A stretch of 64,000 nt of DNA from contig SUVP01000001.1 in the NCBI GenBank assembly GCA_015061945.1, positions 310,001 through 374,000 of the forward strand, given 5' to 3'. Shown piece after piece: positions 1-52,889 of this stretch (within the stretch, counting starts at the first letter, position 1; every line of letters starts with the position of its first letter). The notes under the pieces were generated by a model that did not search any database, was not told the DNA's origin, and saw only the letters and a list, made by a program, of their open reading frames with translations. A program made the translations under genes and the position numbers. Source of the DNA: Opitutales bacterium (GTDB taxonomy: Bacteria; Verrucomicrobiota; Verrucomicrobiia; Opitutales; Intestinicryptomonadaceae).

Positions 1-472
1 GATGCACACCGATTGTAAGATTATATTTTTTTGCGTACTTTAACCACATCGGAATTTCACGATACTTTGCTTCGGTCTGCACTTGTTCGACTCCAATACG
101 TTTTGCGAAACTGCAAACATCTACAACTTGCTTTTCAAATTCCTTGCGGTCTTTCGGGCTTCGCATAATGCAACCATAGCTCTTAATTTGAACGCCAGTC
201 TTTTTCATCAAGTCTTGCAAAAAGGCGTGATGTTCATCAGTCATATTTGAATCGAGACGCACGTTCGGGAATTTTTTTGAAAGAAACTGTTGCGGATAAC
301 ATTCTGCAAATTTGATTCCAGCCTCCTGCAACATATAGAAACTTTCCTCGACTGTTTGATTTCTAAACGTGTATGTCTGCAACGATATTTTGCGTTCAGA
401 TGTTTTGGCAATCGCTTGAAATGACGAAAAAATCAGCGAAACAGTTAGTATGCACAAAAATATTTTTTTCAT
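1..472 (-). CDS. Secreted TIM-barrel (xylose isomerase-like/sugar epimerase family) protein, 3' end missing
   Basis: Partial gene: the ATG is at 472 and the frame stays open to the window edge, giving about 157 residues. It starts with a signal peptide (MKKIFLCILTVSLIF, probable cleavage after SFQAIA). The mature start ISLQTYTFR and the later EQVQTEAKY and TIGVH segments fit the AP-endonuclease-2/xylose isomerase-like TIM barrel, where Glu and His residues bind the metal. The gene at 45610-46440 is a full-length relative with the same order (MTVEAQP, then GLYNHPH). An AAGGA Shine-Dalgarno sits just before the ATG. Secreted members of this family often accompany 3-keto-glycoside or other sugar-modifying enzymes; the substrate cannot be read from the sequence. 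It is divergent from the IclR gene. Confidence 0.8.
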   Translation of the reverse strand, partial: MKKIFLCILTVSLIFSSFQAIAKTSERKISLQTYTFRNQTVEESFYMLQEAGIKFAECYPQQFLSKKFPNVRLDSNMTDEHHAFLQDLMKKTGVQIKSYGCIMRSPKDRKEFEKQVVDVCSFAKRIGVEQVQTEAKYREIPMWLKYAKKYNLTIGVH

Positions 473-554
473 AAAATTTTCCTTTCGTTTCTGAAAAATA
501 TCCAAAAATCACAAAAGCATTATGTCAACGCTTTTGCCGGAAAATCGCCATTGT

Positions 555-572
555 TTTTTCATATTTGAAAAA
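555..572. promoter_or_regulatory. Operator-like palindrome 1 upstream of iclR-type gene
   Basis: Perfect 7-bp inverted repeat TTTTTCA-TATT-TGAAAAA in the divergent intergenic region. A second, nearly identical palindrome lies 61 bp further on. Two matching palindromes at a divergent regulator promoter suggest binding sites for the adjacent IclR-type regulator. This is inference from position and symmetry only. Confidence 0.45.
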
Positions 573-615
573 CTTATGCCTTATATTTCAGTTTTTGCTC
601 GATTACACGCAAATA

Positions 616-633
616 TTTTCCATATTTGAAAAA
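616..633. promoter_or_regulatory. Operator-like palindrome 2 immediately upstream of iclR-type start
   Basis: TTTTCCA-TATT-TGAAAAA, one mismatch from perfect symmetry and the same core as the site at 555-572. It ends 4 bp before the chosen ATG at 637, so a bound protein would block transcription or translation initiation of the regulator. This argues for starting the gene at 637 and not at the in-frame TTG at 565, which lies inside palindrome 1. Confidence 0.45.
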
Positions 634-636
634 AAT

Positions 637-1428
637 ATGAAACGTAAATTCGCAAGCAAATACGAAATACCAAACCTAAAAAATGCCTTTTTAATACTCG
701 ATTATCTCAGGCGTACTGGTACGCAACATTCATTATCTGAAATCGCAAAAGGCGTGGCAATCCCTTGCACGACAACACTTCGCATACTTTCAACAATGTG
801 CGATTGCAATGCCGTAGAAAAAATCGGGAAGAAATATAAAATCGGGAAATTCATTTTTGATATTGCCGATTCAATGCGTACACGAAATAACTTGGGCGAG
901 AAAATATCGCCATTTCTCGTAAGGCTCACCGCACAAACAAAAGAGACATCGCACTTGTGTATTGCAAATCTCGATGGTGCGATTATTTTGCGTGAATGCT
1001 CAACGTGGCAATCGTTGCGTTCGATATCAACCGAAGGAAGTCAAATAAATCTCACTTGCTCAAGTGCTGGAAAAATTTTACTCGCCGACAAAATATCAAC
1101 CAACCCAAACTTTCTAAAAAATATAAAAATCACTACTCGTACGCCTAATAGTATAAAGACTAAAAGAAATCTACTAAGAGAATTAAATAAAGTTGTCGAA
1201 CAAGGTTGGGCTATTGATAACGAAGAATACGAACTTGGTGCGAAGTGCGTATCAGTACCAGTTAGAGACGACTCGAACATTCTAATTGGTGCGTTAGGAA
1301 TCACAGCTCCGAGCGTAAGAATGGGCGAATCGCAAATAAAAAAATTTGTACAAATTTTAAAAGAAACTGCCGACGATTTTTCAAAATCTAATAAGCGATT
1401 TTTAAACGCAATTTCAGCTCGCAAATAA
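637..1428 (+). CDS. IclR family transcriptional regulator
   Basis: 263 aa from the ATG at 637 (an in-frame TTG at 565 would add 24 residues, but that stretch contains an operator-like palindrome). The N-terminal winged helix-turn-helix (about residues 12-75) reads as LKNAFLILDYL, then HSLSEIAKGV, then TTTLRILSTM. It is followed by an effector-binding IclR domain with the typical blocks ISPFLVRLTAQTKETSHL, SSAGKILLA and GALGITAPSVRM. IclR proteins usually control sugar-acid or aromatic catabolic genes; here the nearest targets would be the divergent TIM-barrel gene and itself. It is convergent with the AraC gene, with only 4 bp between stops. Confidence 0.9.
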   Translation: MKRKFASKYEIPNLKNAFLILDYLRRTGTQHSLSEIAKGVAIPCTTTLRILSTMCDCNAVEKIGKKYKIGKFIFDIADSMRTRNNLGEKISPFLVRLTAQTKETSHLCIANLDGAIILRECSTWQSLRSISTEGSQINLTCSSAGKILLADKISTNPNFLKNIKITTRTPNSIKTKRNLLRELNKVVEQGWAIDNEEYELGAKCVSVPVRDDSNILIGALGITAPSVRMGESQIKKFVQILKETADDFSKSNKRFLNAISARK

Positions 1429-47747: not shown

Positions 47748-49868
47748 TTATTTTCTTCTGCGATAAACTGCAAAACCGAGAGCAAGGCTACCTAAAATCA
47801 TCGCCCATTCTGCTGGTTCTGGCACTGCTGCAAAGTTCAACCAGTAGCCACCAGTAGTTGCATCAAACTGATAATTGATTGCTTTTTCTGAATCTAAATC
47901 ATAAAGCTCCAAAATACCTTCGATATTAGATATTTTGCCGAGCTTTATTCTGTTATTCTCAAAGTTCTTCACATAGATTCTAACAGCATTGTTATATGTT
48001 ATATCGCTAAACGATACAAAGTCTTCTGCACCATCAAAATCAAGAGTGAGATTCATACGAACTTTATTAGTGTTTCCATCACTCTGAAAGATAACTGTAC
48101 CAAATTCATTTGTTTCACTAACCTTAATTGTAGCTTGTGATTCATTTGGAATGTTGATTAAAGTTTGGTGAGCTCCGTCAACAGTAACAAATGCGTTTTT
48201 GCTATTTACTTCGAGCGAGTTGCCTCTGCTCCAGAAAACAATTTGGCTTGTTGTTATTGAATCTGTACCAGAACCGACTACAAGAGTGCCACTCAATGAG
48301 ATACGTCCATTTGCATTTGCAGTTAACGAACCGCCTTCGCCAAATGTTACAACGCCTAACGAGCCGACAGTCAACGCATAAAAATTTGAGTCTGCTACTT
48401 TTGTTGATATAAGTGCGCCCGATACATTAAATTTTGTTGTTGTTTTGTGCGAAAGTGCTTTCAGTGTACCACCCTTTTCAACTGTGATAGTACCATATCC
48501 ACCTGTAACAAATTCGTTTGATTCCGACAACAATGTTGCGCCATTTTTGATATTAAGACTCATATTTGAGTTTGACGATTTAAATTCATCGGCAATTTGG
48601 TACGAAAGCGTTCCACCTGCTACATTGATTTGGCAAGTTTGCAAGTTTTGTGTAAACGAACTTAAGATATAAGAATCGCCAGTAATATTGAGAACAGCAG
48701 AATTACTCATATCAAGGAAACCTCCGCTAATTACGAGATTTTTTACATTCATCGTTCCACCATAAATAGCCATCGTACTTGATTTAGTACCTTCAAGAAT
48801 CAATGAATTTACATTTATCACGCCTCCATCTGATGCCAAAATTTTACCAGCGTGATCTATTTCAACTTCATTGATATCGGCTCTTCCCTTAACATTTAAA
48901 ACAGAATCGACTGCTGACATTTTATCTTTATCTTGGAATTCAAACGAGAATTTACCTGCAACATTGAGTGTTCCATAGACTGTGGTTTTAACGCCCTCTT
49001 GGATAGTTGTACCATTTAAGATACCAATTCTATGCACAAGATTATTTAAGTTTGCTGTTGTCCCTTCATTAATATTAAATACAGGAGCCAAGTCAGCATT
49101 CTTTCCATATAGAGAGAGAGTACCGGTTGAATTGATTTCACCGCCATTGACTAATGTTATGTTGCAATAATTGTCAATATTAACATCGTTTACATTCAAT
49201 ATACCACCATCGATTTGCATACCTGGACGAGCACCACGAGTTGTTCCGTCGATTACCGATGTATCCCATTTAAGAAAAATATTTCCATAACCTTCGCCAG
49301 TGGGATTATTTACATTGAATGTACCCTTGACGATATATGCTGGCAACGACTTTCTTACACCATAGTAAGGACCAGAAAATGTAGCTTGTTGAGCATATAT
49401 ATTTACGATAGAATCTGAATCAAATACGACAGCTTTTTGTGGAACTGGATTTGAAGAAGCACCTACATACGAGTTAATTTTAAAACCAAAGTCAGACAAT
49501 CCTGCATCAGCCGTACCAAAGTTATATGTGCCATTGCTCAATGTAAGGCGTGAATCTACGTTAGTGCTACCATCAAAAAGCAGTGAATTTCCGCTTGCTG
49601 GTGCATCGATAGTAAATCCACCCGAAACATATACATTTGCAGATCCATCGGCTTTCAAATACTGGATAGTTTTGCCGTTAGCGTTGAAGTATGTCGAAGT
49701 TGCGTCTGTTGGTGCAACAAGGACAAGTTCCGTTGTATTTGAATAACCATCAGCAAACGAAACTGCAGATTCTGCGGTTGAGCCACCTTCGAGTGTTACC
49801 CAAGTTGCAAACGCTGGAGTAGCAAACAAAGTTGCAAGTAAAAATAATGTATTTTTTGGAGTTTTCAT
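47748..49868 (-). CDS. Large secreted PEP-CTERM protein with beta-helix-like repeats
   Basis: 706 aa. Signal peptide ends near ATPAFA. The body is low in Cys, rich in Gly, Asn, Ser and Thr, and full of short strand-turn repeats (GGILNVNDVNIDNYCNITLV, GGEINSTGTLSLYG, GGVINVNSLILEG, GGTMNVKNLVISGG), as in autotransporter-type or pectate-lyase-like beta helices. The C-terminus is VPEPAEWAMILGSLALGFAV then YRRRK: a PEP motif, one membrane helix and an Arg cluster, the exosortase-recognition tail. Exported and probably processed into the extracellular matrix or surface layer. The exosortase gene is not in the window. Confidence 0.85.
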   Translation of the reverse strand: MKTPKNTLFLLATLFATPAFATWVTLEGGSTAESAVSFADGYSNTTELVLVAPTDATSTYFNANGKTIQYLKADGSANVYVSGGFTIDAPASGNSLLFDGSTNVDSRLTLSNGTYNFGTADAGLSDFGFKINSYVGASSNPVPQKAVVFDSDSIVNIYAQQATFSGPYYGVRKSLPAYIVKGTFNVNNPTGEGYGNIFLKWDTSVIDGTTRGARPGMQIDGGILNVNDVNIDNYCNITLVNGGEINSTGTLSLYGKNADLAPVFNINEGTTANLNNLVHRIGILNGTTIQEGVKTTVYGTLNVAGKFSFEFQDKDKMSAVDSVLNVKGRADINEVEIDHAGKILASDGGVINVNSLILEGTKSSTMAIYGGTMNVKNLVISGGFLDMSNSAVLNITGDSYILSSFTQNLQTCQINVAGGTLSYQIADEFKSSNSNMSLNIKNGATLLSESNEFVTGGYGTITVEKGGTLKALSHKTTTKFNVSGALISTKVADSNFYALTVGSLGVVTFGEGGSLTANANGRISLSGTLVVGSGTDSITTSQIVFWSRGNSLEVNSKNAFVTVDGAHQTLINIPNESQATIKVSETNEFGTVIFQSDGNTNKVRMNLTLDFDGAEDFVSFSDITYNNAVRIYVKNFENNRIKLGKISNIEGILELYDLDSEKAINYQFDATTGGYWLNFAAVPEPAEWAMILGSLALGFAVYRRRK

Positions 49869-50000: not shown

Positions 50001-51983
50001 ATGAAATGCGACACAATCAACCATTGGAAATTCTTTAAAGCCGGCGGTGCTTACCAAGCATCGATAAACACTGCCGAAGACATCAAAAATATCGGCGAAC
50101 TCGACCGAAAAATGTGGTCGGCACTCGCTTGCCCCGTTAGTGGACTGGCTTTCGACCAAAAACTTCTCGATATTCTCGATTCAAAAAAAGACGGCAAAAT
50201 TAGATACGACGATATTGTCTCTGCTACACAATGGGTATGCAAAAATTTGAAAGATGTATCAGTAATGTTCGATTCTCCGAACGCTCTCACACTTTCAAAT
50301 ATCAACAATGAAACCGACGAAGGCAAAGCCCTCTTGGTGAGTGCCAAAACAATCCTCGCAAACATCGGCAAGTCGGACTCTGACGAAATTTCTCTCGACG
50401 ATTTTTCTGACACTCAGAAAATCTTTGCAAATAGTGCCTTTAACGCAGACGGAATTATCACAGAAGATGCTTTTGATTCTGATGAGCTAAAAGCTCTCTT
50501 TGCCGATATTGCATCGGTATCGAATGCTAAGACTGACCGCTCGGGCAAGGCTGGTATAGATAAAGCAGATATTGAAAAATTCTATGCCGACGCCAAAGCG
50601 TATGTCGATTGGCAAAACGCTCGCACTGCCGACCCCGCAATTCTTCCACTCGCGGATGCGACAGATAATGCATACGCATCTTACTTGGCAGTGAAAGAAA
50701 AAATCGAAGATTACTTCACACGCATAGAAATTTTGGCTTTCGATAAATCGGCTGAATCGGCTGTCAACGCAACTGCCGAACAATTCGCAAAAATCCTCTC
50801 AGGCGATATCACACAAGCTTCCGATGAATTGAAAGCTCTGCCGATATCATCAGTTTCCAACGACAATTCAATCGACTTGCTCGGTGCTGTGAACCCTGCA
50901 TGGAAATCGGCACTGGCAAACTTCGCAAACAGCGTTGCAACACCAATCTGCTCGACTACAAAAATCACAAGAGACGATTGGCAGAAAATCGCTACAACAC
51001 TCGTACCATTCGCAACATGGTTAAATTCAAAACCAAATACCGATGTCTCGAAAATCGCTCTCGACAGACTCAACGCAATCCTCGCAGAAGATAAGTCGGC
51101 AGAACTTTACAAGGCTATTGATGCCGACCAAGCAGTTAGTGTTGAAGTCGAAAATATCTCGAAGGTTGAAAAGCTTGTTCGCTTGAACGCTGGGCTTGTA
51201 AAACTTTTGCGAAACTTTGTGAACTTCCAAGAATTCTACAAAGAAAAAAGCGACTCTATTTTCCAATTCGGCGAACTTTATATCGATAGCCGTATGTGTT
51301 CGCTTTGCATAAAAGTTAAGGATGTCGCAAAACACGCATCGATGTCGGCACTCAGCTATGGATACCTGCTCTACTGCACTTGCAAACGCAAAGGTGAAGC
51401 CGATATCAACATTGTAGCAATGGTAACTGCGGGCGACTCCGATAACCTTATCGTCGGTAGAAATGGTCTTTTCTATGACAAACAAGGTCGTGTTTGGGAC
51501 GCAACTGTATCAAAGATTGTCGTAAACCCAATCGGTATTTCGCAAGCATTTTTTGCCCCGTATAAAAGGTTTGTCCGTTGGATAAGCGAGCAAATTGCAA
51601 AACGTGCAAGTGCAGCCGACGCCGACGCATCGGCAACTCTCCAAAAGGGAATTCAAGTTGATCCAAAAACAAAAAAGCTCGATATGGGAATTGTCGCAGC
51701 GTTGGGCGTTGCCATTGGTGGTATCACAACAGCGTTGGGCTTAGTTATCGAAGCATTCCTCGGTTTAGGACACTGGCTCCCATTGGGAATTTTGGGGATT
51801 TTCCTTGCGATATCACTGCCGTCGATGTTGGTATCGTGGCTTAAACTTCGCTTGAGAAATATCGCACCACTCCTCGATGCGAACGGCTGGGCAATCAACA
51901 ATAAAGCTGGTGTAAGTATGGCGTTTGGCTCGCATTTGACACTTGTCAGACGTGGCAAGCGTTGCCCGACAAACAAGCGATAA
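50001..51983 (+). CDS. 660-aa protein with EF-hand-like N-terminus and C-terminal membrane segments
   Basis: No named family recognised. N-terminal region WKFFKAGGAYQASINTAEDI then LDRKMWSALACPVSGLAFD, followed by EF-hand-like loops (DSKKDGKIRYDD at about residues 59-70 and a looser FNADGIITEDAF). A long helical middle follows. A conserved-looking C-terminal part has a Cys-containing segment (RMCSLCIKVKD, YLLYCTCKRKG) and two membrane helices (IVAALGVAIGGITTALGLVI and PLGILGIFLAISLPSMLV). No signal peptide. Monocistronic, with a shared terminator after it. Confidence 0.7.
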   Translation: MKCDTINHWKFFKAGGAYQASINTAEDIKNIGELDRKMWSALACPVSGLAFDQKLLDILDSKKDGKIRYDDIVSATQWVCKNLKDVSVMFDSPNALTLSNINNETDEGKALLVSAKTILANIGKSDSDEISLDDFSDTQKIFANSAFNADGIITEDAFDSDELKALFADIASVSNAKTDRSGKAGIDKADIEKFYADAKAYVDWQNARTADPAILPLADATDNAYASYLAVKEKIEDYFTRIEILAFDKSAESAVNATAEQFAKILSGDITQASDELKALPISSVSNDNSIDLLGAVNPAWKSALANFANSVATPICSTTKITRDDWQKIATTLVPFATWLNSKPNTDVSKIALDRLNAILAEDKSAELYKAIDADQAVSVEVENISKVEKLVRLNAGLVKLLRNFVNFQEFYKEKSDSIFQFGELYIDSRMCSLCIKVKDVAKHASMSALSYGYLLYCTCKRKGEADINIVAMVTAGDSDNLIVGRNGLFYDKQGRVWDATVSKIVVNPIGISQAFFAPYKRFVRWISEQIAKRASAADADASATLQKGIQVDPKTKKLDMGIVAALGVAIGGITTALGLVIEAFLGLGHWLPLGILGIFLAISLPSMLVSWLKLRLRNIAPLLDANGWAINNKAGVSMAFGSHLTLVRRGKRCPTNKR

Positions 51984-52006
51984 CTTACCAACACAAAAAA
52001 TTGCAT

Positions 52007-52038
52007 AAAAAAAGAGAGCCGTAAGACTCTCTTTTTTT
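52007..52038. terminator. Bidirectional terminator between the 660-aa gene and tRNA-Phe
   Basis: AAAAAAAGAGAG/CTCTCTTTTTTT with 8-nt loop; T-runs on both strands serve the plus-strand gene and the minus-strand tRNA. Confidence 0.85.
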
Positions 52039-52046
52039 TGAAAATG

Positions 52047-52119
52047 TGGCTAGACCAGGAATCGAACCAGGGACACAAGGATTTTCAGTCCTCCGCTCTA
52101 CCAACTGAGCTATCTAGCC
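52047..52119 (-). tRNA. tRNA-Phe (anticodon GAA)
   Basis: 73 nt including discriminator A. Acceptor GGCTAGA/TCTAGCC, D-arm GCTCAGTTGGTAGAGC, anticodon stem GAGGA/TCCTT with loop CTGAAAA (anticodon GAA), variable GTGTC, T-arm CCTGGTTCGATTCCTGG. CCA is not encoded. Confidence 0.96.
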
Positions 52120-52253
52120 AAGAAATAAATTTAAGACTCGACTACATATTATTTCCGCCTACTCGTCAAGAGATTTTTTTTATTTTTTTATTATTGCCCT
52201 TATTTTATTTTTTTATTCTATCTCTAATAGCTAAATACAACAGACATTTATTT

Positions 52254-52889
52254 ATGAAAACATTAAAATTATTACTCGCATTATCGTCAATATTGGGCTT
52301 AACAGCTTGCGATAACCAAATATCGTTGTTCAACGGAAAAAATCTCGATGGTTGGACTTGCTACCTTGCCGACGCCACTCCGACAAGCTCGGTATATTCA
52401 GTCAAGGACGGTGCAATCAATATCAAAGGCAATCCATTTGGATATATTCATACCGACAAAAAATATTCAAATTTTAAACTTCAATTAAAATGGCGTTATG
52501 TAAAAGAAGAAGGCAATAGCGGGATTTTTGTTTTCGTACAAGATGAAAAGAAAATTTGGCCAAATGCTATCGAGTGCCAGTTGATGAAAGGACGCAATGG
52601 CGACTTTGTCCTCTTGGGCGGTTCAGACATTGCCGAGTTTAAGACACCAGAAGGTACACCTCGCCCAAAATTCCCTGTCGTAAAACGTTTTTGCGACGAC
52701 GGCATAAAGCCTGCTGGACAATGGAATACAGCCGATATTATTTGCAAAGACGGCACTATTGAAGTGAAGATGAATGGTATCCTCAAAAATAAAGGCACAA
52801 AATCGATGCACAAAACTGGCTATATCGCTTTGCAATCCGAAGGTACAGAAATCGAATTTAAAGATATAAAACTTACCCCTATTAAGTAA
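52254..52889 (+). CDS. DUF1080 (3-keto-disaccharide hydrolase-like) lipoprotein
   Basis: 211 aa from the ATG at 52254; the open frame further upstream crosses tRNA-Phe and is not coding. Lipobox LGLTAC. A concanavalin-like jelly roll: ISLFNGKNLDGWTCYLAD (hallmark FNGKxLDGW), FKLQLKWRYVKEEGNSGIFV, AIECQLMKGRNGDF, GQWNTADIICKDGTIEVKMN, and GYIALQSEGTEIEFKDIKL. Some DUF1080 enzymes cleave 3-keto-glycosides made by partner dehydrogenases. No dehydrogenase of that kind is adjacent. Confidence 0.85.
   Translation: MKTLKLLLALSSILGLTACDNQISLFNGKNLDGWTCYLADATPTSSVYSVKDGAINIKGNPFGYIHTDKKYSNFKLQLKWRYVKEEGNSGIFVFVQDEKKIWPNAIECQLMKGRNGDFVLLGGSDIAEFKTPEGTPRPKFPVVKRFCDDGIKPAGQWNTADIICKDGTIEVKMNGILKNKGTKSMHKTGYIALQSEGTEIEFKDIKLTPIK

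Follow-up and report, generated by a model that had tools for sequence, protein, structure and literature searches.

We analyzed a 64,000-nucleotide stretch of DNA from an Opitutales bacterium (termed the window) and, within it, the gene running from an ATG to a TAA at positions 50001 to 51983 of the plus strand (660 codons). The open reading frame (ORF) list agrees with the original prediction of a 660-amino-acid (aa) protein at this place. The protein aligned over its full length with 22 relatives at 28 to 61% identity, and we therefore consider the ORF to be a gene and not a chance frame; full-length relatives in many genomes rule out an orphan or spurious ORF. The gene is single copy, as its own genome gave one protein match only.

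Divergent from this gene and upstream of it lies a 706-aa ORF (47748 to 49868, minus strand) that looks secreted and repeat-like. Its end was judged by eye to be PEP-CTERM-like (VPEPAEWAMILGSLALGFAVYRRRK), and a Pfam search with it found no match. On the other side, the hairpin listed in Table 1 is missing from the pattern-scan terminator list, and a tRNA-Phe is encoded on the opposite strand, 3' of the family gene. The next ORF as called (52038 to 52889, plus strand) begins beside, then runs through, the tRNA-Phe region; translation probably begins at the ATG at 52254, which gives a 211-aa 3-keto-disaccharide hydrolase (PF06439). No conserved operon was seen in the window's own group, where no neighbor cluster was common to more than 3 of the 23 loci.

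Table 1. Features of the gene for the 660-aa protein and of its 3' flank, in window coordinates
Feature	Position	Residues	Strand	Remarks
EF-hand loop 1	50178..50213	60-71	+	DSKKDGKIRYDD; canonical in most family members; position 3 is Lys in this protein
EF-like loop 2	50367..50402	123-134	+	degenerate; strand 129-131 in models
EF-like loop 3	50436..50471	146-157	+	conserved N-x-D-G
EF-like loop 4	50535..50570	179-190	+	conserved D-R-S-G-x-x-G; structural rows at 145-210
Helical middle region	50613..51245	205-415	+	AlphaFold2 secondary structure
Beta domain	51270..51521	424-507	+	model 1; inside best conserved part (alignment by inspection)
Two-helix membrane hairpin	51684..51851	562-617	+	model and hydropathy
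Post-hairpin conserved segment with GWAIN	51855..51947	619-649	+	predicted cytoplasmic; third helix behind it in most relatives, none here
Terminator-like hairpin	52004..52040		+	3' of the family gene's stop codon; fold z-score -3.97, equaled by 0 of 200 shuffles

We then compared the protein with known families. Its architecture had been called unassignable, and no clear match to a characterized family emerged: Pfam placed EF-hand_7 (PF13499; residues 54 to 135, E value of 1.9e-4) at 22.1 bits, below the cut-off of 30, with all other matches weaker, and searches of NCBIfam, PHROGs, PADLOC, and PDB sequences gave nothing significant. EF-hand_7 matched 9 of 23 family members at E values up to 0.1 (best, 1.1e-5). 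The best PDB profile match, polcalcin over loops 3 and 4 (E value of 0.016), was not significant and was followed by neuronal calcium sensor 1 (0.055); residues 23 to 81 matched a chain named mitochondrial proton/calcium exchanger, again without significance (0.22). LETM1-type inner-membrane EF-hand proteins are defined by the LETM1 core domain, and the Pfam hits listed for our protein include no LETM1 model. The NCBIfam model for the XopAW type III effector family matched 4 of the 23 members (best E value of 0.0062), which we read as shared EF-hand resemblance, because this model is named as calcium-binding. We rejected a mobile, viral, or anti-phage defense gene, as there were no matches in phages, viral contigs, PHROGs, or PADLOC; a viral-model fold search gave nothing significant either (best E value of 6e-3, probability of 0.21).

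A single-sequence search of 54 genomes found the gene in 22, the window's own included; it also found it at three loci among GTDB contigs, belonging to Verrucomicrobiota, a Rhodospirillales MAG, and a Fibrobacter MAG. With a family profile built from 23 members, we confirmed relatives in Verrucomicrobiota, where the original prediction had proposed to look: the profile matched in 153 of the 288 genomes of this phylum, in 13/398 genomes of the phylum of the Rhodospirillales MAG, and in 11/150 genomes of Fibrobacterota, the phylum of the Fibrobacter MAG. Within the window's own family, the gene was present in 13 of 19 genomes and was not found in the other 6, and G010, a close relative whose genome is listed as one contig, had no family match; the gene is therefore probably dispensable in this group. 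In a quick tree of 115 rows, those from the phylum of the Rhodospirillales MAG fall among verrucomicrobial rows, a placement that would fit lateral transfer. Our literature search, which covered titles and abstract openings, found no description of this family and no paper pairing "DUF481" with "EF-hand." The family is thus a widespread, undescribed group of bacterial proteins without a significant entry in the libraries searched.

The N-terminal part of the protein had been described as carrying an EF-hand-like calcium loop. This reading holds for most of the family, whereas in the window protein itself the loop is degraded. We used a strict EF-hand pattern (a 12-residue loop with ligands at positions 1, 3, 5, and 12, Gly at 6, and a hydrophobic residue at 8), which loop 1 matched in 58 of 83 N-terminal sequences versus 31 of 16,600 residue shuffles; as the rows are homologous, 58/83 measures conservation and not 58 independent events. 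All four ligands (Asp1, Asp/Asn/Ser3, Asp/Asn/Ser5, and Asp/Glu12) were present in 70/83 rows. Judged from these alignments, the calcium-like loop is in excess of chance for the family. The window protein fails the strict pattern: it has Lys at position 3, as does no other of the 83 rows. Among the other loops, loop 3 has N-x-D-G, or D/S at those ligands, in 73/83 rows and a full ligand set in none (0/83), loop 4 combines Asp1 with Asp/Asn/Ser3 in 54/83, and loop 2 shows no ligand pattern in the 83 rows.

A clade of shortened members (L117 to L120 and L127; ∼500 to 590 aa, with the start of L118 uncertain) has no loop 2 to 4 regions. Strict loop 1 was kept in all five of them and in three full-length relatives (8/8 examined). 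That these proteins lost loops 2 to 4 yet keep strict loop 1 is a strong sign that loop 1 is the family's working site. A long N-terminal extension of L118 was considered as a domain fusion and set aside when Pfam gave no match; on inspection, the extensions of L118, L103, and L104 look like artifacts of start-codon choice.

Structure prediction was compatible with an EF-hand assignment. An AlphaFold2 model of residues 1 to 210, computed from the 83 sequences (model 2), had a mean pLDDT of 91.8. The best 50 rows from Foldseek and the best 50 from VIA were, by title, all EF-hand proteins or complexes containing one, and no other fold appeared among them. All these matches were weak (best Foldseek E value of 0.035; best VIA Z score of 4.7), and none reached a Z score of 5 or a Foldseek E value of 0.001; we drew no inference of absence from misses in either search. 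The folds of calmodulin, calcineurin, S100, CDPK, and centrin share the EF-hand arrangement, mainly over residues 145 to 210 and ∼24 to 77 of the model, and differ in that Z is at most 4.7 and three of the four family loops are degenerate. Alignments and models thus support a predicted EF-hand module in the N-terminal ∼205 residues, with loop 1 as its constant ligand-complete site.

The full-length AlphaFold2 model (model 1; mean pLDDT of 83.2) comprises the EF-like N-terminal part, a helical middle, a beta domain, and a hairpin. The long helical middle of the original prediction was therefore recovered in its first part, while the portion behind it contains the beta domain, followed by a long helix (residues 513 to 548). 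By inspection of the alignment, the best conserved stretch of the family covers approximately residues 421 to 545, together with the GWA-x-N segment. Fold searches with model 1 recognized nothing; the rows for the beta domain were weak (Z at most 4.0) and included ydhK, EF-Tu, Tudor, HerA-DUF, and TdpAB, of which we take the HerA-DUF and TdpAB rows to carry the HAS-barrel name. A zinc site built from the beta domain's CxxC and CxC pairs was considered and rejected, since the cysteines are replaced in several relatives.

A hydropathy scan of the window protein found no N-terminal hydrophobic segment, consistent with the predicted lack of a signal peptide; the protein thus has no N-terminal signal peptide or membrane helix of the EfhP/CasA type. 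The two membrane helices expected near the end were found by hydropathy (peaks at 565 to 583, 582 to 600, and 593 to 611) and in model 1 (helices 562 to 587 and 590 to 617). Of 44 family ORFs, one of them the N-terminal fragment of an interrupted gene, 35 have a third hydrophobic helix behind the GWA-x-N segment. The sequences of the window protein and of its two closest relatives (L002 and L024) stop short of this helix. A tail-anchored protein has a single membrane helix at its extreme C terminus. The proposed tail anchor is accordingly correct as to a C-terminal anchor, but this anchor is a hairpin in the window protein and has a third helix in most relatives, so it is not a simple tail anchor. 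On inspection, basic residues flank the hairpin. The N-terminal part is probably cytoplasmic, as had been proposed for this large region, and with the N terminus inside and three helices, we infer that the C terminus is periplasmic in three-helix members.

We next looked into the genes surrounding the family in other genomes, where a link to outer-membrane barrels appeared that is not visible from the window alone. A DUF481 gene was adjacent to the family gene on the same strand in nine genomes and fused to it in frame in one more, for a total of 10 genomes. Outside Fibrobacterota, we found it on the same strand and no more than 343 nt away in 6 of 105 loci (L124, L130, L140, L141, L142, and L144) and fused in one further locus (L152, a 919-aa frame); two additional neighbors came from position tables and were checked (G147 and G193), and another came from the search around the fusion (G888). 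At L160, a DUF481 gene 2.9 kb away on the other strand was left out of the neighbor count. Both gene orders occur, with DUF481 upstream in L124, L140, L141, L144, L190, and L203 and downstream in L130, L142, L191, and the fusion. The six proteins tested all exceeded the PF04338 cut-off (68 to 168 bits versus 21.1), five of them being adjacent and the sixth that of L160. In a whole-genome search, PF04338 likewise scored above its cut-off beside the family gene in G147, G193, and G259; in G318, the match lay within the fused frame. DUF481 is entered in TCDB as 1.B.75, a putative family of 12-strand outer-membrane pores (PMC4827864). It is the neighbor, and once the fusion partner, of the family gene and no homologue of the family.

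At least 9 DUF481 neighbors or fusions were thus seen among the 153 family-bearing genomes of the 288, versus ∼0.04 expected on the same strand by a simple estimate with assumed gene counts and the 89 genomes having both families; the observed count is a lower bound, as the DUF481 table and the flanks each cover part of the genomes. No DUF481 gene was adjacent or fused in 98/105 non-Fibrobacterota loci, some of which lie close to the end of a contig; divergent DUF481 genes may also have escaped the profile, which was built from six neighbors. Co-occurrence by genome was weak (89 of the 288 genomes with both, 64 and 62 with one only, and 73 with neither; Fisher P value of 0.045, which ignores descent). 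On the 115-row tree, which lacks G888 and has many unresolved branches, the DUF481-neighbor state required seven parsimony changes.

A barrel gene of another family accompanies the Fibrobacterota members. In 9/9 loci examined, out of 11 genomes with a family match, a DUF3078-like gene lay on the same strand 35 to 321 nt away, and these loci form one supported clade on the tree. We call these neighbors "DUF3078-like" because PF11276 scored one of the nine at 19.5 bits, below its cut-off of 25. Common descent of the DUF481 and DUF3078-like barrels was unsupported (hhalign probability of 9.6; pairwise E value of 0.0034). Taken by lineage, the neighborhoods support an association of the family with outer-membrane barrels in several lineages. 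This adjacency and fusion of an EF-hand family gene with outer-membrane barrel genes is what is new here.

In the fusion (L152, genome G318), the family part (residues 4 to 657) leads into a hydrophobic helix, behind which lies DUF481 (688 to 918). On inspection, the helix resembles both the third membrane helix and a signal peptide with what may be a cleavage site. For the fused barrel to reach the outer membrane, the end of the third helix would have to be periplasmic. The fusion comes from one draft genome and was not seen in 30 other genomes of the same order that were searched, so it may reflect an assembly fault; we count it as support for, not proof of, the barrel link.

Several further neighborhoods were observed. 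Genome G150 holds two full-length family copies (L124 and L125), with a DUF481 neighbor at L124 only. The window genome's single DUF481 match (L192:4261-5307, contig C3) is on another contig than the family gene and is followed, on the same strand, by a malate dehydrogenase-like gene (by eye).

We propose, with a probability of roughly 0.45, that the family consists of large inner-membrane proteins whose cytoplasmic EF-hand sensor has as its partner an outer-membrane barrel of the DUF481 or DUF3078-like type. The EF-hand module, the helical region, and the conserved beta domain would face the cytoplasm, and the hairpin, with the third helix in most members, would hold the protein in the inner membrane. 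Binding of Ca2+ or another divalent ion at loop 1 would alter how the cytoplasmic region is folded. The membrane part would relay this change to the outer-membrane partner or control its making or placing, such that intracellular ion status could be coupled to the state of the outer membrane. The window member may have lost its calcium response or its partner, since its loop 1 is weakened, its third helix is lost, and DUF481 lies elsewhere in its genome. A stricter form, in which the EF-hand sensor directly contacts or controls the barrel as a two-membrane calcium device, the two being joined into a single polypeptide in one species or more, strikes us as distinctly unlikely; if true, it would be a dedicated route for intracellular calcium to set the state of the outer membrane.

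The conservation pattern invites a different explanation, which we hold to be somewhat unlikely: the beta domain and the post-hairpin segment would be the working part, acting by binding or catalysis at the cytoplasmic membrane face. The EF-hand module would then be an accessory with a structural or regulatory role, and the barrel neighbors would be incidental. The best conserved residues are indeed in these regions, the shortened forms drop most of the EF-hand region and retain the C-terminal part, and the window protein retains it as well despite its degraded loop 1. However, strict loop 1 persists even in the five shortened forms, the barrel neighbors are left unexplained, and no catalytic fold was recognized, although weak matches prove nothing. 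The barrel neighbors could also reflect a loose clustering of envelope genes around a protein that acts alone, e.g., as a calcium buffer or membrane scaffold. Their absence from most loci (98/105) favors this idea, and so does the existence of other lineage-bound neighbors: a gene for an undecaprenyl-phosphate sugar-phosphate transferase-like membrane protein (by eye) lies 12 to 32 nt upstream on the same strand in 6/6 examined loci of family code f43 (L158, L163, L169, L178, L179, and L180), and in 4/4 examined loci of family code f54 (L153, L156, L160, and L182), the gene immediately upstream, on the same strand, is MBL-fold-like (by eye). We still regard loose clustering as unlikely in view of the excess of same-strand DUF481 neighbors and fusions over expectation, in scattered lineages and in both orders, of the other-family barrel gene in 9/9 Fibrobacterota loci examined, and of the in-frame fusion.

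Adjacent or fused barrel genes, and the signal peptide-like third helix of the fusion with its possible cleavage site, would also suit an export or assembly factor for the barrel in place of a sensor. Barrel chaperones act in the periplasm, whereas the bulk of this protein is predicted to be cytoplasmic, and 62 of the 151 DUF481-bearing genomes have no family match, which makes such a role very improbable.

The sensor proposed here can be compared with other EF-hand proteins. CaBP7 and CaBP8, mammalian calcium sensors with EF-hands on a C-terminal membrane anchor according to the part of the literature drawn on, are likened to the family by their working only and differ in being mammalian and small. 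To our knowledge, they have no beta domain. Several bacterial EF-hand proteins that have been studied are small and secreted or periplasmic, as far as the accessible text of these reports goes (PMC4053335, PMC9132961, PMC13171946). Among them, EfhP (PA4107) of Pseudomonas aeruginosa binds Ca2+ with a measured Kd of 13.7 µM and resembles the window family in being an envelope-associated EF-hand protein of bacteria. It differs in having two hands near residues 88 to 126 and, at its N terminus, a segment that was initially taken for a membrane helix and later for a signal peptide, the protein now being placed in the periplasm, and the portions of these papers at hand make no mention of a beta domain or a C-terminal hairpin (PMC4053335, PMC9132961). 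The original prediction called a membrane-anchored EF-hand protein unusual; such a combination is uncommon but not unheard of, since bacterial calmodulin-like EF-hand dyads joined to membrane domains have been described, with verrucomicrobia among the groups named (PMC7016017). The fusions listed in the part of that study drawn on involve 7TM, Tic110-like, heme oxygenase, nitric oxide synthase, NADPH oxidase, cNMP-binding, thioredoxin, cytochrome, and sulfatase domains, and the present architecture is not among them (PMC7016017).

Well-defined bacterial calcium receptors are few, and neither DUF481 nor DUF3078 has a known function. A membrane family found in about half of the sampled genomes of its phylum (153/288), which links an EF-hand module to DUF481- and DUF3078-like barrels, points tentatively to an envelope device linked to calcium and gives the EF-hand family and the barrel families each a concrete partner to examine. 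Species with adjacent or fused genes make the question of whether cytoplasmic calcium acts on the outer membrane directly approachable.

Two damaged copies of the family gene were also observed. In genome G437 (L098:7617-9989), an in-frame TAA breaks the gene into pieces of 246 and 537 aa. The sole plasmid match is an unannotated 146-residue fragment on Aeromonas salmonicida pBY3 (L043:1691-2128), a plasmid typed as conjugative with a predicted tet(Y) gene nearby; the fragment corresponds to profile positions 328 to 476 and looks like a remnant of a family gene.
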